Source: Chlorops oryzae (lineage: Eukaryota; Arthropoda; Insecta; Diptera; Chloropidae). Taken from it: 64,000 nucleotides of DNA. The translations under genes were made by a program, and so were the position numbers. The notes beneath the pieces were generated by a model. The model was given only the letters and a program-made list of their open reading frames with translations. It had not been told where the DNA came from and did not search any database. The stretch is taken from the NCBI GenBank assembly GCA_020466095.1, contig CM035807.1, forward strand, positions 31,204,166 through 31,268,165. Reading direction: 5' to 3'. Shown here one piece after another: positions 9,518-52,580 of the stretch (its first letter is position 1; each line of letters starts with the position of its first letter).

Positions 9518-10402
9518 TACCCGACACACTCTGTGTCGAGGGTATATTGCGTTTGTGTGGTTGTGTGTAACACCCAGAACCAGTCGAGATAGACCATACA
9601 AAATATATATAGAAATGATCAGCGTCACTAGGAGATTCGATTTAGACATGTCCGTCCGTCCGTCCGTCTGTCTGTCCGTCTGTTTGTCCGTCTGTCTGTT
9701 TGTATACAGTTTTCTTATCGAAGGAGTTGAGCTATGTATCTTGACAAAATTTGGTATGCGTGCTCACGGGGACATGAGTAAGAACAAGTTCGAGAATGGA
9801 CCCGATCGGACCATTTTTAGGGGTACCTCCAGTACTAGGGTCTGTTATGAAAATCACAAAAACTGCCTCAAAATCGAAGTTTTTCAAGATATTTTGATGA
9901 AATTTGATAGTTGAACATATTTGAAGTCAAGTTATTAAATTTCAAAAAATTCGAAAAGTGGGCGTGGCAGAAGGGCATTTTTCGAAAATTCTCTCCTACA
10001 CCCGAAATTCAAATGGGACTTGAACGAAATTTGGCAGTTTTGCTTCCTTTGTGGCTATAAACATCCTCTCCAAAACAATTTTTGATAGATCCATTATTAA
10101 GGGTACCTCCAGTACTAGGGTCTGTCTCAAAAATCTCAAAACTGCCCCAAAATCGGATTTTTTTGAGATATTCCACTGAAACTTAGAATTTGAGCATATA
10201 TTAAGGCCTCCGATTAGAAATCAAAAAAATTGAAATAAAGGGCGTGGCAAAAGGGCGGTTTTCATAAAGAAATTCAACAAAAGTCGGTATATGGGGCCCC
10301 TTATGGCCTTAAACACCTCTTAATATTAAAAATTATTTGAACATGTGTGTTTGTGTCGGGTATTCTATTGTCAGGCTCGCCTGACTATAACACCCTTACT
10401 TG
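9518..10402 (+). mobile_element. DINE-1-like (helentron-derived) non-autonomous element, full-length
   Basis: The 5' end starts TACCCGACACACTCTGTGTCG, a hairpin. The subterminal TACCCGACACA is repeated inverted near the 3' end as TGTGTCGGGTA (10354-10364). A (GTCY)n microsatellite occupies about 9650-9702, and GGGCGTGGCA motifs recur at 9960 and 10241. The 3' end carries a perfect hairpin GTCAGGC-TC-GCCTGAC (10370-10385) followed by CACCCTTACTTGT and a T run. Subterminal inverted repeats, an internal microsatellite and a 3' hairpin are established DINE-1/INE-1 traits. The 140-aa frame over its start is a by-product of the repeat. Confidence 0.75.
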
Positions 10403-10609
10403 TTTTTTTTTTTTTTTTGTTCAAAAGAACGCATTTCGAAGGACTATCTTTTCTTTTACACTTAGATGGAAGGCAGTCTTAGCAATCTTGAACAATTTCC
10501 GGGACCAAATAGCACGCTACATCACGTGAAATTTTAATCAATATTTCAGCCAAGATTAAAACTTCTTAAAATAAAGACCATAAGACGGTACATCATGTAA
10601 AATGTATCC

Positions 10610-10860
10610 GAAATTTATATGAAGTTTTTGAAAGTACTTGGTAATTGTAACAACTCCTTGAACTTGGTATTGGCAAATTGGCTACAGGTCAAATTTAAAT
10701 CGATTTCAAAAATTGGGGCTGAGAATTAAGTTGCGCACTTACTAATGGCTATATCTTGTATACCGTTAAATTTTTTATTTTCCGGTCTATCATAAAGATT
10801 TAGCCCTAAGCTTCCAAAAAATAGTTCAAGAAAAAAATGATCCCAAAAAAATTCCATGAA
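10610..10860 (+). repeat. Dispersed repeat family R1, copy 2
   Basis: This copy shares GAAAGTACTTGGTAA, GAGAATTAAGTTGCG, GGCTATATCTTGTATACCGTT and TTAGCCCTAAGCTTCCAAAA-type blocks with 7811-8080 (reverse) and 60690-60905. It ends directly at the TA where the next MITE begins. Confidence 0.6.
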
Positions 10861-10863
10861 GTA

Positions 10864-11000
10864 CAGTGTTCTCTCTCTTAAGCGGACACTTACGCGACCG
10901 AAATATGTGTCCGCTTAGCAGAGATCCTTAAGAGGAAACTATTTGAGAAGCAGGAACACTATTGCATTGCCAAAAGGTGTCCACAAGGAGGAGTACACTG
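10864..11000. mobile_element. Small TA-flanked MITE, pogo/Tigger-like
   Basis: The ends are CAGTGTTCTCTC... and ...GAGTACACTG, each flanked by TA (10862-10863 and 11001-11002). The left and reverse-complemented right ends agree over about 26 bp with mismatches and both reach GTGGACAC or GCGGACAC. An internal AAGCGGACAC / GTGTCCGCTT pair makes a second hairpin. TA duplications and CAGT ends are typical of pogo-type Tc1/mariner MITEs. Confidence 0.6.
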
Positions 11001-11002
11001 TA

Positions 11003-11637
11003 GCTATAAATAAATAGCAAAGATTTCGAAAATTTTTACGATTTTTTCACATCTTTTTAACACTTCGGACCCATAGATGAAAATTGTTTGACCAAAATCA
11101 GAACAGAAGAAGGAAAATTTGTCTTGCGGTCGTAAAACAGCTTGAGAGTTAGCAAAGCACTCGTGGCAATTTCAGCCTCTTCTCAAGACAGATATTATGG
11201 GTTCTTCATGCATTCCGGAGCCAAGGGAAGTTTCTTCTTCTTCTACAGGATTGTAAATTACTTACTACGGACTACGAAAAACTTGCCTTTACGAAGCCTT
11301 GAAAGGACATTGTGAGGTCAAAGAAGCTCTGCATTCTTATTGCTATGGAACCAGCTAAATCTCCTTCCATTCTATAGCATCCACTTTTATGGTTCATGAT
11401 CTTCTAGGCTATATAAAATAACCTTCTATTCACAAGATTTTCACTGGCAGAAAGTTCAAAATGGATATGAGAAAAAGCTCTTTAGAAAAAATTTATTTTA
11501 CATTTTGAATTGCTCACAAGTGAAACTTTTCCATGCAAGAAAATGATCCATATCATGTCGAGGGCATCACCGAAGACAATCTCTTTTAACCTGGAGCGTG
11601 CTTTCGGTGACAAAATTTAAAAAAAAAAATGTACAAA
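11003..11637. other. Spacer between the two DINE-1-like copies; no gene
   Basis: Unique-looking sequence between the convergent DINE-1-like elements. No frame of note and no terminal repeats were found. Confidence 0.45.
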
Positions 11638-12546
11638 CGAGTAAGGGTGTTAAAGTCAAGCGAGACTGGCAATAAAATACCCGACACAGATATACATGTA
11701 TAAATATTTTTCAAAACACTTCCAAAAACCAGGACCATTAAGAAAGAATATTCAAGAGATTTTTAAGGCCATAAGGAGCCCCGTATACCGCTTTTTGTTA
11801 AATTTCTTTATGAAAACCGCCCCTTTTCCACGCCCAATTTTCCAATTTTCTTGAGAATTCTAATCGGAGGCTTAAATATACGCTCAAATTCTAAATTTCA
11901 TTGATATATTTCGAAAAAGTCAGATTTTGGCGAAGGTTTTGGGATTTTTCTGACAGACCCTAGTACTGGAGGTACCCTTAATAATGGACCGATCAAGGAA
12001 ATTTTTTGGGAGGATGTTTATGGCTAAAAAGGAAGGATAAGTGCCAAATTTCGTTCAAGTCCCATTTGAATTTCGGGTCTAGGGGACAATTTTCGAAAAA
12101 CTCTCTTCTGCCACGCCCACTTTTAAAATTTTTGGAAATCGTATTACATGACCTGAAACATGTTCAAATATCAAATTTCATCAAAATATGTTGAAATACT
12201 TCGACTTTAGAGCAGTTTTTGTGATTATCGTAACAGACCCTAGTACTGGAGGTACCCCTAAAAATGGTCCAATCGGGTCCATTCTCGAACTTGTTCTTAT
12301 TCATGTCCCCGTTAGTACACATACCGAAAATAATCAAGATAGCTCAACTTTTTCGATAAGAAAACTGTATGCAGACAGACAGACGGACAGACAGACAGAC
12401 GGACAGACGGACGGACATGTCTAAATCGAATCTCCTAGTGACGCTGATCATTTCTATATATATTTTGTATGGTCTATCTCGACTGGTTCTGGGTGCTACA
12501 CACAACCACACAAACGCAATATTCCCTCGACACAGAGTGTCTACGA
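11638..12546 (-). mobile_element. DINE-1-like element, minus strand, nearly full-length
   Basis: On the minus strand this repeats the whole order of the 9518-10402 copy: the TGTGTCGAGGG start with AATATTGCGTTTGTGTGG, AGTGACGCTGATCA-type core, (GTCY)n tract (12371-12418), CCTCCAGTACTAGGGTCTGT blocks, GGGCGTGG motifs, then TGTGTCGGGTATT, a degraded hairpin (CAGTCTCGCTTGACT) and CACCCTTACTCGT. The terminal ACCC of the 5' hairpin is lost (GTAGACAC at 12538-12545). The two copies converge, with their 3' ends facing each other. Confidence 0.75.
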
Positions 12547-47300: not shown

Positions 47301-48789
47301 CATTCCTGTAAGGTCTAAAAAATATGAGCTATTCTCTCTAACATATCCATTACTGACCCATTAAAGACTTTTAACCCTTGTTTTTATTTTCACTATCTAG
47401 AAGGCACTTTTTGAAAATATTTTAATTAAATCCACCACGTGATGAAGGGGTTATTTTTTCCTTGCCATAAAAATATATTTTCTCATTACAAAATTTTAAT
47501 TAGTTTACATAGTTTATTTTTTTCATACATTTTAAATCAAGATATTAGTGAAAAAGCAAAGCTCATTTGAATTCTACCGAGAAAATACTCCGAAAAGGTG
47601 ATGGAATTTTCGCAAAATCGCTCGTGTAAAAATATTCGAAGTGACGCTAATTACCGCTTTTAAGTTTGACAATTTTTCGAAAAACCTCAATGAAGGGGAT
47701 AGGAGGGGGGGAACTCGTTTTTGCTTCAGCGATTTGACTACGACTTTCGATTATAAATTCTCGTCCAACCACCCGCTCTCTCCGTCAAAGCCACGATATT
47801 GTGATTTTTTAATAGAACTCGGCGTTGCGTAGTTCAAAATGGCCCTCCGTTATCGATTAAAAGCTTGAGAATTCAATTTTTTTAATACGGTAATCTCACC
47901 TAATTGGAATTTTTGTATGAACATAATTGATTTCTTTTTTGCTTAATTGGAAGGAAGCTTTAAGAATATTTGATTAAAATTTTTTTTTACTTCTAGTATA
48001 TATTTTTTGAATGAGGCCTTCTTTATCATGACCTTTGGAATAAGAGAATGGGACCTTTCTTAAACTTTACTTAGCGCTTGAGATCTTAATTTTTAAGTTA
48101 TTAAGGTTAAGTAAATTTCTGCTGTCATTATTTGAATTTTAATCAAATAGTTATTTCAGAACTTTTGAAGATTTTTGAGTCTGTCCTGCCTGTTGAGAAA
48201 GATGATCAAAAGAGGCAGTATTTCCAGTGCCTTTTCTTTCCTGAAGAGACCGATCATTGTTGAGAACTTTTGTTCAAACCTAGCATAAGAATTCATTGCA
48301 GCGAATGCATAAAGATGAAAATTTTATTGAGTTTTTAAGCAATTGCTTAGCTTGACATACAAGAAATAATCGTTTACCTATGAGTTCTGAAATAGGTATT
48401 TAAGGTCCATCGCGATTAACTAAAGTCAGAGATCCATCTCATTTGTATGCATACGAGCAAGATTGTATGCAAGATTAAAGTCCCCATTCAAAAGGCATTA
48501 TTCTCGGCCACAAATTCTTCTCTAAGTGCATGAGGACACCCTTTCAAAATATCCTAAGCAGACAAGATGATTCATAAAATCTATTTTCATTCGATGATTG
48601 ATTATTTGAGCTTTTTATTTGAAGGACTTTTTATGGATTTTCTACCTGTCGAGAAACTTTAAATGAACCCTTTCTGCTTTTCGCTCTCACCCTCTCTGAA
48701 TGCTCTTTTATCAATTTGTGGTTAAATTCAATAAAATAAAATGAACAACAGAAACCATTACAAAAAAAAAAAAAAAAAAAATAATAATA
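47301..48789. other. No supported gene
   Basis: AT-rich DNA. It ends in an A run followed by AATAATAATA (48762-48790) into which the long-TIR transposon is inserted. Confidence 0.45.
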
Positions 48790-49689
48790 ACACTGCTTAA
48801 CAAATTTGGAATTTATAAAAAGCAACTGAATATTTGTGCAATTTTCCTGTAGATCTCGGCCTCCTAAGCAAGAAAAAAAATTTTTTTAATTTTTTTATGG
48901 AAGAGTTTTTGAGAAAAAATTTTTTGAAATTTTTTTCAGTGCATTTCGTAGGTGCACTTGCTATTTCAAGCATATCTCGGGCCCCGATCTACCGATTTTA
49001 ATAAATATATTTTCCAAATATAGATAATTAAGCTCCCTACAACTTTTAGAATCAAAGTTTTTGATTTGCATGAGTAGTTTTAGTGCTAGAGGTGCAATTA
49101 TACAAGAAAATTGTGTTTTTTTCAAAAAAATCAGGGTAAATTTTTCATATAAAAATTTGTAAAAAATAGAAATCGAAGTGGAAAACCCATTTTCAAATTT
49201 TTTGCGTATAGCTAAGTATTTCTTCTAAAAAATAAGCCCCGTTTGGCTAAAAGCGGTGAAAAATTTACGGAGCTATGATTTTTTTGCCAAAACACTAAAA
49301 AATCGATATTTCACAATTTTTGCTTTGTTCACAAAACTTGTTCATATGAGCCGAAATTATTTTATGAAGGTGCAATTGAGTAAATTTTCACATATATAAA
49401 TGCATAAATGCTGCCTCTTTATTGATTAAAAATGAATGTCGTTTTGCCCTGCCTTTTAGAATATTGTGGTGGATTTGTTTACCTGCCGGTCTCAATGACC
49501 TGTACCAGATAAAAAAGGGTGCAGTGCTTTCCCTTAGTGGAAAAAAATATAAGGTATCATGAATACGTTTTGTGCGTTAACGTCAGTTTTTATACTAAAC
49601 GTGTTTCTTTACTTTCAATTTTGCCTAATGAATTGAGCGTAGTATAAAATACCTGAGGTTTTGCATACTTTACATACATACTTACATAC
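48790..49689 (+). repeat. Left long terminal inverted repeat
   Basis: Reverse complement of 51688-52576. It contains AGATCTCGGCCTCCTAAGCA, GGGCCCCGATCTACCG and GAACGTG-free AT-rich blocks shared exactly with the other arm. Differences seen by eye include GTGCAATTTT versus GTACAATTTT, and GAATCAAAG versus GAAACAAAG. Confidence 0.9.
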
Positions 49690-49710
49690 AGTATAGAAAA
49701 TTTATGGCAA

Positions 49711-49720
49711 TATATAAAAG
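49711..49720 (+). promoter_or_regulatory. TATA box of the transposase-like gene
   Basis: TATATAAAAG lies about 100 bases before the ATG and just inside the left inverted repeat, so it is unique to the plus-strand gene. No strong initiator was identified 25-30 bases downstream. Confidence 0.45.
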
Positions 49721-49813
49721 GGTAACACTTATGCGTTTAGATTAGTAGTCTTGAACTAAATTTTGAACAACGTACATCAATTGAAAATAAAACAAATTTT
49801 AAAATATAAAAAA

Positions 49814-51540
49814 ATGAGTAAAAGAACTCGTGTATTCATGTGCAAAAACAATCCGGACGATTTTTGCAATATTTGTGGATTATATATGTTAAAAAATAAA
49901 GGATTAGCGTTTACTGAAGCACTGCAAAAGCACTATTTCCATTACTTCGGTGTTTTGCCAACTCTCAATGAGCCGTGGACGCCTAAAAGAATATGTGACC
50001 TATGTCATAGAAAGTTATCAAAATGGGCTTCTGGAGAACGGTAAGAATTAAAATTTAATACGCTATAAAAAAAACTAACTATTTGCATTCTAGCTGTTAC
50101 ATGGATTTTGACACGGCAATGGAATGGAGTGAGCCCTTTTGTCACTCGGTGGACTGCTATTTTTGCCTTAGTGCAAGAAGTGGATTTGGGAAACATTTAA
50201 AATGGGAATACGCGAAAGTTGATTCGGTAAAATTTCCTCTACCTCATTCAAGTGATGTGCCTTATCCAGAATGCCCTGGCTCAGCACCCAAAATAGAAGG
50301 ATCATCAGAGGAAATGCTGGGGTCTAGTGGAAGTCAGTTTGAAACAAGTTTAACGCAACGAATACTCTCACAGGCCGAATTAAATGACTGGATTCGTGAT
50401 TTTGGTTTTTCAAAGGGTAAAGCTGAACTTTTTGCATCTAGAATGAAAGAACGCGGATTTGTGGCTCCTGATGTCAAAACAAGCATTTACAGAAATCGGC
50501 ACTTGCAATACGGAAAATTTTACGCAAAAGTAGACGATATCTGTTTCTGCAGCAATATTTTAGGCCTATTCGAAGAGCTCAATGAAGTCTACAATCCCGG
50601 AGAGTGGCGTTTATTTATCGATAGCAACAAAGAGAGCTTAAAAGCTGTCCTCCTACACAATGGCAACCAAAAACCGTCTCTTCCTGTCGCATATGCATCG
50701 CATTCTAAAGAAACCTACGAAACAATGAAAACGCTTTTGGATCATATTGAATATGACAAGCATAGATGGAAAATATGCGCTGATCTCAAGGTAGTGGCAA
50801 TTCTGTGCGGGCTTCAAGGAGGATATACAAAATATTGTTGTTTTTTGTGCAAGTGGGATAGTCGCGCTGACCACTTACACTATATTAAAAAAGATTGGCC
50901 TTTGCGAACCAACATTATAGTTGGTGCAGACAATATTCAACGCACTGCTCTCGTTGATAAAAATAATATTATATTACCGCCACTGCATATAAAATTAGGA
51001 CTTGCTAAGAACTTTATAAAAAAATTGGCAAAAGATGGAACACAGGAAGCTTTTGCCCGCTTAAAGGCGATCTTTTCCTACCTTTCACACGCAAAACTCA
51101 AGGAAGGAGTTCTAAATGGTCCAGAAATACGTAAACTTTTGCAAGACGACGAGTTCTCAAGCCTTTTGTCCCCAGTCGAAGCAGCAGCGTGGAGCTCATT
51201 CAAACTTGTTATACACAATTTTTTGGGCAACCACAAAAGTCCAGATTACAAGCAAATAGTAAATAACCTACTAAAGAATTATAAGAAAGCCGAAGTACAC
51301 ATGTCGTTGAAGATCCACTTTCTCGATTCGCACTTGGATTTTTTCCCTGAAAACTTAGGAGACGTAAGCGATGAGCATGGCGAACGTTTTCATCAGCAAT
51401 TAAAGGATATTGAAAATCGCTATAGCGGCCTTTTCGACACGGCAATGATGGGTGATTACGTGTGGTCCCTTGTGCGTGAAAATGATGGTAGTAAATATAA
51501 AAGACAAAGCGGAAGCAAGAACTTTTTTCAAATTGTATAA
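49814..51540 (+). CDS. Transposase-like protein of an unclassified arthropod family, 557 aa, two exons
   Basis: Exon 1 is 49814-50040 and exon 2 is 50094-51540. The 53-bp intron (50041-50093) has GTAAGA and a pyrimidine-tract TTCTAG acceptor, splits codon 76 (Arg) and keeps the frame. I chose ATG 49814 (AAAAAAATGAG context) because upstream in-frame codons lack an ATG. The N-terminus has a Cys/His cluster likely to bind zinc: C18xxC21, H40/H43, C61xxC64, then C92 and C97xxC100. A linker rich in Ser/Pro follows. The core block GEWRLFIDSNKESLKAVLLH puts Asp252 on a predicted first RNase-H strand; ICADLK gives Asp306, and a CCFLCKWDSRAD block (C324, C325, C328) follows. LPPLHIKLG and a C-terminal DEHGERFHQ (H504, E506, H509) complete the conserved blocks. 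I recall such blocks from many uncharacterised arthropod proteins. That this is the transposase of the surrounding element is inferred from its position between the inverted repeats. The catalytic residues are guesses. No frameshift or stop is present. Confidence 0.87.
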
Positions 51541-51553
51541 AAATAATTTTGGA

Positions 51554-51559
51554 AATAAA
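51554..51559 (+). terminator. Poly(A) signal of the transposase-like gene
   Basis: AATAAA lies 14 bases after the TAA stop, before the right inverted repeat, so transcripts can end without reading into the repeat. Confidence 0.55.
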
Positions 51560-51687
51560 TTTTTATTTCTTTAACACTTTTGCATTAGAGCTTATTTCAC
51601 AAATGTTTTACAGGAGTTGTACCAATTTGGTAGTTCATGTTGTCTTAAAGTGGGCTGCATCACAGCGGCCCCGGTGTATGTATGTAA

Positions 51688-52576
51688 GTATGTAAGTATG
51701 TATGTAAAGTATGCAAAACCTCAGGTATTTTATACTACGCTCAATTCATTAGGCAAAATTGAAAGTAAAGAAACACGTTTAGTATAAAAACTGACGTTAA
51801 CGCACAAAACGTATTCATGATACCTTATATTTTTTTCCACTAAGGGAAAGCACTGCACCCTTTTTTATCTGGTACAGGTCATTGAGACCGGCAGGTAAAC
51901 AAATCCACCACAATATTCTAAAAGGCAGGGCAAAACGACATTCATTTTTAATCAATAAAGAGGCAGCATTTATGCATTTATATATGTGAAAATTTACTCA
52001 ATTGCACCTTCATAAAATAATTTCGGCTCATATGAACAAGTTTTGTGAACAAAGCAAAAATTGTGAAATATCGATTTTTTAGTGTTTTGGCAAAAAAATC
52101 ATAGCTCCGTAAATTTTTCACCGCTTTTAGCCAAACGGGGCTTATTTTTTAGAAGAAATACTTAGCTATACGCAAAAAATTTGAAAATGGGTTTTCCACT
52201 TCGATTTCTATTTTTTACAAATTTTTATATGAAAAATTTACCCTGATTTTTTTGAAAAAAACACAATTTTCTTGTATAATTGCACCTCTAGCACTAAAAC
52301 TACTCATGCAAATCAAAAACTTTGTTTCTAAAAGTTGTAGGGAGCTTAATTATCTATATTTGGAAAATATATTTATTAAAATCGGTAGATCGGGGCCCGA
52401 GATATGCTTGAAATAGCAAGTGCACCTACGAAATGCACTGAAAAAAATTTCAAAAAATTTTTTCTCAAAAACTCTTCCATAAAAAAATTAAAAAAATTTT
52501 TTTTCTTGCTTAGGAGGCCGAGATCTACAGGAAAATTGTACAAATATTCAGTTGCTTTTTTTTTGTTTGACAGTGT
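51688..52576 (-). repeat. Right long terminal inverted repeat
   Basis: Exact partner of 48790-49689 apart from a few substitutions and the shorter outer part. The inner edge lies in a (TATG)n-like patch (51677-51712) that has expanded relative to the left arm. Confidence 0.9.
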
Positions 52577-52580
52577 AATA

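Follow-up and report, generated by a model that had tools for sequence, protein, structure and literature searches.

Structure of the element

The window analysed here is a stretch of 64,000 nucleotides from the chloropid fly Chlorops oryzae (assembly GCA_020466095.1, contig CM035807.1, positions 31,204,166 to 31,268,165 of the forward strand). It carries an element of 3,785 bp, running from a CACTG to a CAGTG end, that is very probably an intact, autonomous-looking and very recently multiplied cut-and-paste DNA transposon of the Chapaev3 clade, with an interior that appears to flip. The element is built on two inverted repeats of 873 bp each (48817-49689 and 51688-52560), identical at 871 of 873 positions and free of gaps, which agrees with the almost identical arms of about 890-900 bp described in the initial annotation. 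The 1,998 bp that separate the arms hold a TATA-like box, a two-exon gene and an AATAAA sequence (Table 1), and the inner edge of the arms sits in a CATA/CTTA microsatellite. The gene is wholly contained between the arms and encodes a transposase of 557 amino acids (76 + 481) without an internal stop; the single intact spliced gene read earlier at this place is thus upheld. Its product has a DDE triad and the motifs C(2)C, LH (L373-H374) and H(4)H.

The outermost sequences behave differently from the arms. On the left, CACTGCTTAACAAA plus 11 extra bases is set against CACTGTCAAACAAA on the right, giving 3 mismatches in 14 bases followed by the 11-base length difference, so that outer parts of 26 bp and 15 bp diverge whereas the arms inside them are near-identical. 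Because there are 3 mismatches in 14 at the ends against 2 in 873 within the arms, a comparison picked after the data had been seen, copying or homogenisation seems to have reached the arms later than it did the ends.

Table 1. Coordinates of the element and its parts within the 64,000-nucleotide window.
Feature	Position	Strand	Basis
Left target-site duplication TAA, A before	48788..48790	.	sequence and duplications in copies
Whole Chapaev3-type element (probable), CACTG...CAGTG, 3,785 bp	48791..52575	+	
Left arm, 899 bp including left-specific outer end 48791-48816	48791..49689	+	
Interior, 1,998 bp; both orientations relative to outer ends among other copies	49690..51687	+	
TATA-like box, putative promoter, immediately inside left arm; TATAAA at 49713	49709..49718	+	sequence
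Transposase exon 1, with putative zinc-finger region at the N-terminus: C10, C18, C21, C61, C64	49814..50040	+	
Transposase intron, GT..AG, 53 nt	50041..50093	+	
Transposase exon 2: DDE core D252, D306, E506; C(2)C C325/C328; LH H374; H(4)H H484/H489	50094..51540	+	
Putative AATAAA polyadenylation signal, short distance past stop	51554..51559	+	sequence
Right arm, 888 bp including right-specific outer end 52561-52575	51688..52575	-	
Right target-site duplication TAA, T after	52576..52578	.	sequence and duplications in copies

Copies, insertion sites and recent activity

The 442-Mb assembly that contains the window (1,044 contigs) was searched with the left arm and with the interior, which gave 420 and 217 first-look candidates, respectively, and the best 40 of each were scored. 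Following the copy count proposed in the initial annotation, 50 separate places were examined: the window, L009-L046 and, out of the 20 loci L047-L066, the 11 that added a new place. A complete interior is present in 39 of the 50, with a mean pairwise substitution of 0.00089 and a maximum of 0.0030, figures that lean towards youth because it is the best matches that get scored. The intron's GT and AG are retained in all 39, and the spliced gene is intact in 28 (15 of the 19 in window orientation, 12 of the 19 flipped, plus L018). Private substitutions number 24 across these copies, 23 of which have none. The 18 private coding substitutions (7 synonymous, 10 nonsynonymous and 1 stop, where 0.20, 0.74 and 0.06 are expected if all changes are alike) were too few to use, and a selection test on them was dropped.

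When one flank was compared at each of 39 places, the single alike pair was L009/L010, and the remaining insertions therefore look independent. These two copies stand in tandem at a distance of ~3.7 kb and share identical flanks of 290 bp; the second copy is incomplete, and the pair is probably a tandem duplication of the insertion site.

Two-ended copies number 37, the window included; they were recognised by their CACTG..CAGTG ends and hence are no independent test of the termini. Three of them (L052, L065 and L066) have too little flank, and of the 34 that are testable, 33 show an identical 3-bp duplication in the CAC..GTG register; the sole copy without a match is L041, which is flipped. 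The duplication is TAA in 18 copies, TTA in 13, and AAA and TTT in 1 each, so that 31 fit TWA, and it is preceded by A in 31 and followed by T in 30. The initial annotation had reported AATA flanking both ends. That sequence is indeed present at 48786-48789 and 52577-52580, but its register is rejected because 33 of the 34 testable copies share the 3-bp duplication; that of the window is TAA inside A..T. The dispersed, near-identical copies and their duplications point to recent activity, and with the intact gene they bear out the earlier suggestion of a recently active, possibly autonomous element; it is probably autonomous.

Two orientations of the interior

As read from the genome assembly, the interior of many copies is inverted relative to the outer ends. 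Two-ended copies with a full interior comprise 14 in window orientation and 14 flipped, plus L018, and adding ten single-ended copies, oriented by hand from the visible end, brings the ratio to 19:19 plus L018 (95% interval of the share, 0.33-0.67). The partial two-ended copies divide 4:4, a count in which four of the eight (L011, L017, L023 and L046) hold the interior twice in opposite directions, that is, with arms extended inward, and were scored by their best-matching piece. L018 has a left-type end on both sides with its TTA duplication intact, and probably arose by end conversion. Target duplications are kept in 10 of the 11 testable flipped, full-interior, two-ended copies, L041 being the exception, so most flipped copies did not come from exchange between different copies.

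Two markers allow the orientations to be set against copy history. An interior A/T marker at window position 50884 is T in 13 of 39 full-interior copies, and a right-arm marker is A in 24 of 40 right arms and 0 of 47 left arms. The two go together (p 0.0006, 32 copies), whereas neither shows linkage to orientation (p 0.30 and 0.49). Both orientations occur in three marker backgrounds (8:9, 6:3 and 3:2), the fourth background being one copy, and L012, in window orientation, has a rare interior variant in common with the flipped L041. Plain parsimony on these sequences would call for about three flips, or four if L041 is trusted, a number that inter-copy conversion could reduce.

The strongest challenge to this picture is that the two orientations are an artefact of assembly, the 2-kb middle having been placed at random between 0.9-kb arms, for which 19:19 is the very ratio that would be given. 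We think this unlikely. The window contains not one N, nor do the 66 fetched loci with their 295,991 bases. Many near-identical 3.8-kb copies sit in three contigs 97-173 Mb long, which suggests reads longer than the element. Moreover, linkage of the interior and right-end single-nucleotide polymorphisms means that interiors are at least not freely shuffled between copies. Somewhat less likely again is that two isomers arose once and were each amplified by transposition, with no recurrent flipping. Isomers may well transpose as such, since the flipped copies so largely keep their duplications; on a single origin, however, neither the presence of both orientations in each of three backgrounds nor the opposite orientations of L012 and L041 is expected, although the missing duplication of L041 weakens that pair. 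Because of the mixed backgrounds and this pair, several flips or inter-copy conversion are needed.

We tentatively propose, as a reading that has a real chance of being right but falls short of probable, a flip-flop transposon in which excision and gap repair, or recombination between the arms, would re-randomise the middle, keep the arms identical and hold two isomers at equilibrium, with aborted rounds leaving snap-back, extended-arm copies. Flips would be expected to be neutral because the arms match each other and because the putative promoter, gene and poly(A) signal all turn together with the segment between them; an inverted interior should thus be harmless. Flipping between inverted repeats is well known from bacterial composite transposons, the yeast 2-micron plasmid and chloroplasts. 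Our literature search found no interior-inversion isomers of a eukaryotic cut-and-paste transposon, which is weak evidence of absence since subscription journals were mostly uncovered. If flipping is true, long arms make a transposon invertible, homogenise its ends and yield extended-arm derivatives, and the origin of Foldback-like structures becomes directly testable.

The transposase and its place among transposon families

The protein family of the transposase is abundant, with 1,874 matches out of 7,993 candidates scored, and the 120 relatives listed are, where named at all, uncharacterized or hypothetical, just as had been anticipated from the sequence. The nearest protein found by a word-limited search is 66% identical. 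No relatives were found in the viral contigs or prokaryote genome contigs searched, and a literature search with the transposase motif strings found no paper. Searches of Pfam, for which the initial annotation had called, and of NCBIfam and PDB sequences gave no match above the cut-off. A tree built with 119 relatives groups the window's protein with P0003 and P0010 (SH-aLRT 95) within a 13-row set (99). Six of the 119 have an open frame whose start corresponds to residue 79, the first Met that follows the window's intron, and all six belong to the 13-row set, which is what a two-exon lineage would lead one to expect. This count is restricted to the residue-79 starters, as the looser label 'short proteins' (12 rows, 4 changes in the tree) included fragments and P0024, which has its own N-terminus.

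Pfam RAG1_imp_bd was matched by four relatives, each time below the curated cut-off: P0006 (E 0.0064), and P0007, P0038 and P0094 in roughly matching register. The N-terminal finger of P0007, P0020, P0024 and P0026 repeatedly comes close to Pfam zf-AD, with a best E of 0.00034 that misses the cut-off, and a link between zf-AD, the insect ZAD domain, and the Chapaev/RAG1 N-terminal finger is possible.

Chapaev3 elements, as described by Zhang and others 2014 (PMC4079192), have CAC/GTG ends, a TWA duplication bordered by A and by T, and the motifs C(2)C, LH and H(4)H; their Merrow and Garfield transposases have two exons (78+484 and 78+478 amino acids), and a Garfield copy is named in a bracovirus. 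Each of these hallmarks is found in the window element: CACTG..CAGTG termini, TWA in 31 of the 33 duplications among its copies, mostly in the A..T context, the DDE triad with all three motifs, and a two-exon transposase whose length falls in the range of ~556-562 amino acids. In addition, structure comparison gave its catalytic core a RAG1/Transib-like fold, with no viral structure matched at E 0.001 or better; no EnSpm/CACTA structure is among the fold matches listed, which says nothing on the CMC grouping. Kapitonov and Koonin 2015 (PMC4411706) treat Chapaev3 as one of four clades of the Transib superfamily and describe a Chapa zinc finger common to Chapaev3 and the N-terminal part of RAG1, and the fold would place the element near RAG1, in that same group. 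According to Kojima 2025 (PMC12730594), C(2)C and H(3-4)H are common to EnSpm, Mirage, Chapaev, Transib and RAG1, with Chapaev3 as a sublineage of Chapaev. Fragments from another fly, Calliphora vicina, have already been named Chapaev3 (PMC3630058). On hallmarks and fold, we therefore assign the element to Chapaev3 as a new family: the group is an already-named one, distant kin of the RAG1 enzyme that rearranges antibody genes, and what is unusual is the arms, the youth and the apparent flipping. A nameless, abundant protein family thus gains a probable home, and many intact, near-identical copies in one genome offer material for Chapaev3 enzyme biochemistry and for comparison with RAG cleavage.

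The initial annotation had instead raised the possibility of a new or extended superfamily; on that reading, the resemblance to Chapaev3 in ends, duplication and motif order would be superficial. The Pfam and NCBIfam families all falling below cut-off, and a nearest protein at 66% identity, would suit that proposal, but we now consider it very improbable, given that, apart from the sub-threshold N-terminal finger, the hallmarks tested fit Chapaev3, among them A-TWA-T targeting and the split into two exons, and that the fold is RAG1/Transib-like. A domesticated host gene with coincidental repeats, the single-copy case raised at the outset, has nothing beyond its intact reading frame in its favour and is effectively refuted by the many dispersed, near-identical copies with target duplications and by flanks that are alike in one tandem pair only.

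Other known systems agree less well. Transib and RAG target duplications are 5 bp, against the 3-bp TWA here, and Transib, ProtoRAG and RAG1 are ~12% identical to the transposase, with no second gene seen in the element. MULE and Foldback duplications are about 9 bp, again against 3 bp. Drosophila Foldback elements and Tetris are alike in having long inverted arms; Tetris, as reported (PMC4079207), is apparently non-autonomous with ~220-bp tandem repeats in its arms, whereas our element carries a gene and its direct repeats are short AT-rich matches only. Galileo, a Drosophila member of the P superfamily, likewise has long near-identical arms (765/757 bp in D. willistoni), so arms of the size that the earlier remark called unusual are not unique among fly transposons. 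Galileo differs in its P-type transposase and 7- or 8-bp duplications, as required of the P superfamily, in place of 3 bp in the CAC..GTG register, and none of the characterised D. willistoni copies is intact. The closest match by description, the basis of this comparison, is Merrow/Garfield (Chapaev3 clade of Chapaev, in the CMC, also CMCT, group), which shares the ends, target, motifs and exon split after ~76-78 residues; complete elements are given as 2.29-2.46 kb (PMC4079192), in contrast to 3.79 kb with 0.9-kb arms, and interior-inversion isomers are a further difference.

Several points weigh against our interpretation. Three other HzTransib structures score only 11.8-12.4, barely over the P element, which Foldseek with a full-length relative also lists (E 1.7e-4). 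A sequence profile against one RAG1 was not significant (E 0.2); its alignment paired the second D, C(2)C and LH, and a forced global alignment is meaningless. Pfam support for an N-terminal Chapa domain is sub-threshold only, and Chapaev3 membership rests on hallmarks and fold instead of direct alignment or a tree with Repbase sequences. As to the copies, sampling the best-scoring matches misses older ones and underestimates divergence; the 1:1 isomers could partly be an assembly artefact or old standing isomers; and L041, flipped and without a duplication, is a member of the informative pair with L012.

Proposed mechanism and origin of the arms

By analogy with homologous enzymes, and from the duplications, we suggest that the DDE transposase, with its RAG1/Transib-like core and a putative zinc finger at the N-terminus, would find the element by its CACTG ends, cut it out and integrate it at ATWAT targets through cuts staggered by 3 bp. 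The 0.9-kb arms probably began as an inverted duplication of one subterminal region and would be kept alike by recombination, the same exchanges inverting the interior, so that the family may persist as two isomers, about equal in number among the copies seen. Marzo and others 2013 (PMC3573991) describe in Galileo a TIR1-F1-F1-TIR2 form like that of the four extended-arm partial copies here, explained by copying one end over the other; in Galileo, too, arms are lengthened when internal sequence is taken up in inverted form. On the simplest reading, the 0.9-kb arms may be the fixed product of an end-copying event in a short-repeat ancestor, and the same recombination may now flip the interior.

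The surrounding window

Outside the element, no Rfam match reaches the gathering threshold in window positions 1-64000, and four stop-to-stop frames of at least 150 amino acids all have a low-complexity look. A second long inverted-repeat structure lies at 9526-12540, with ~800-bp arms whose pieces are 78-96% alike, a core of ~1.4 kb, and ends unlike those of the element.
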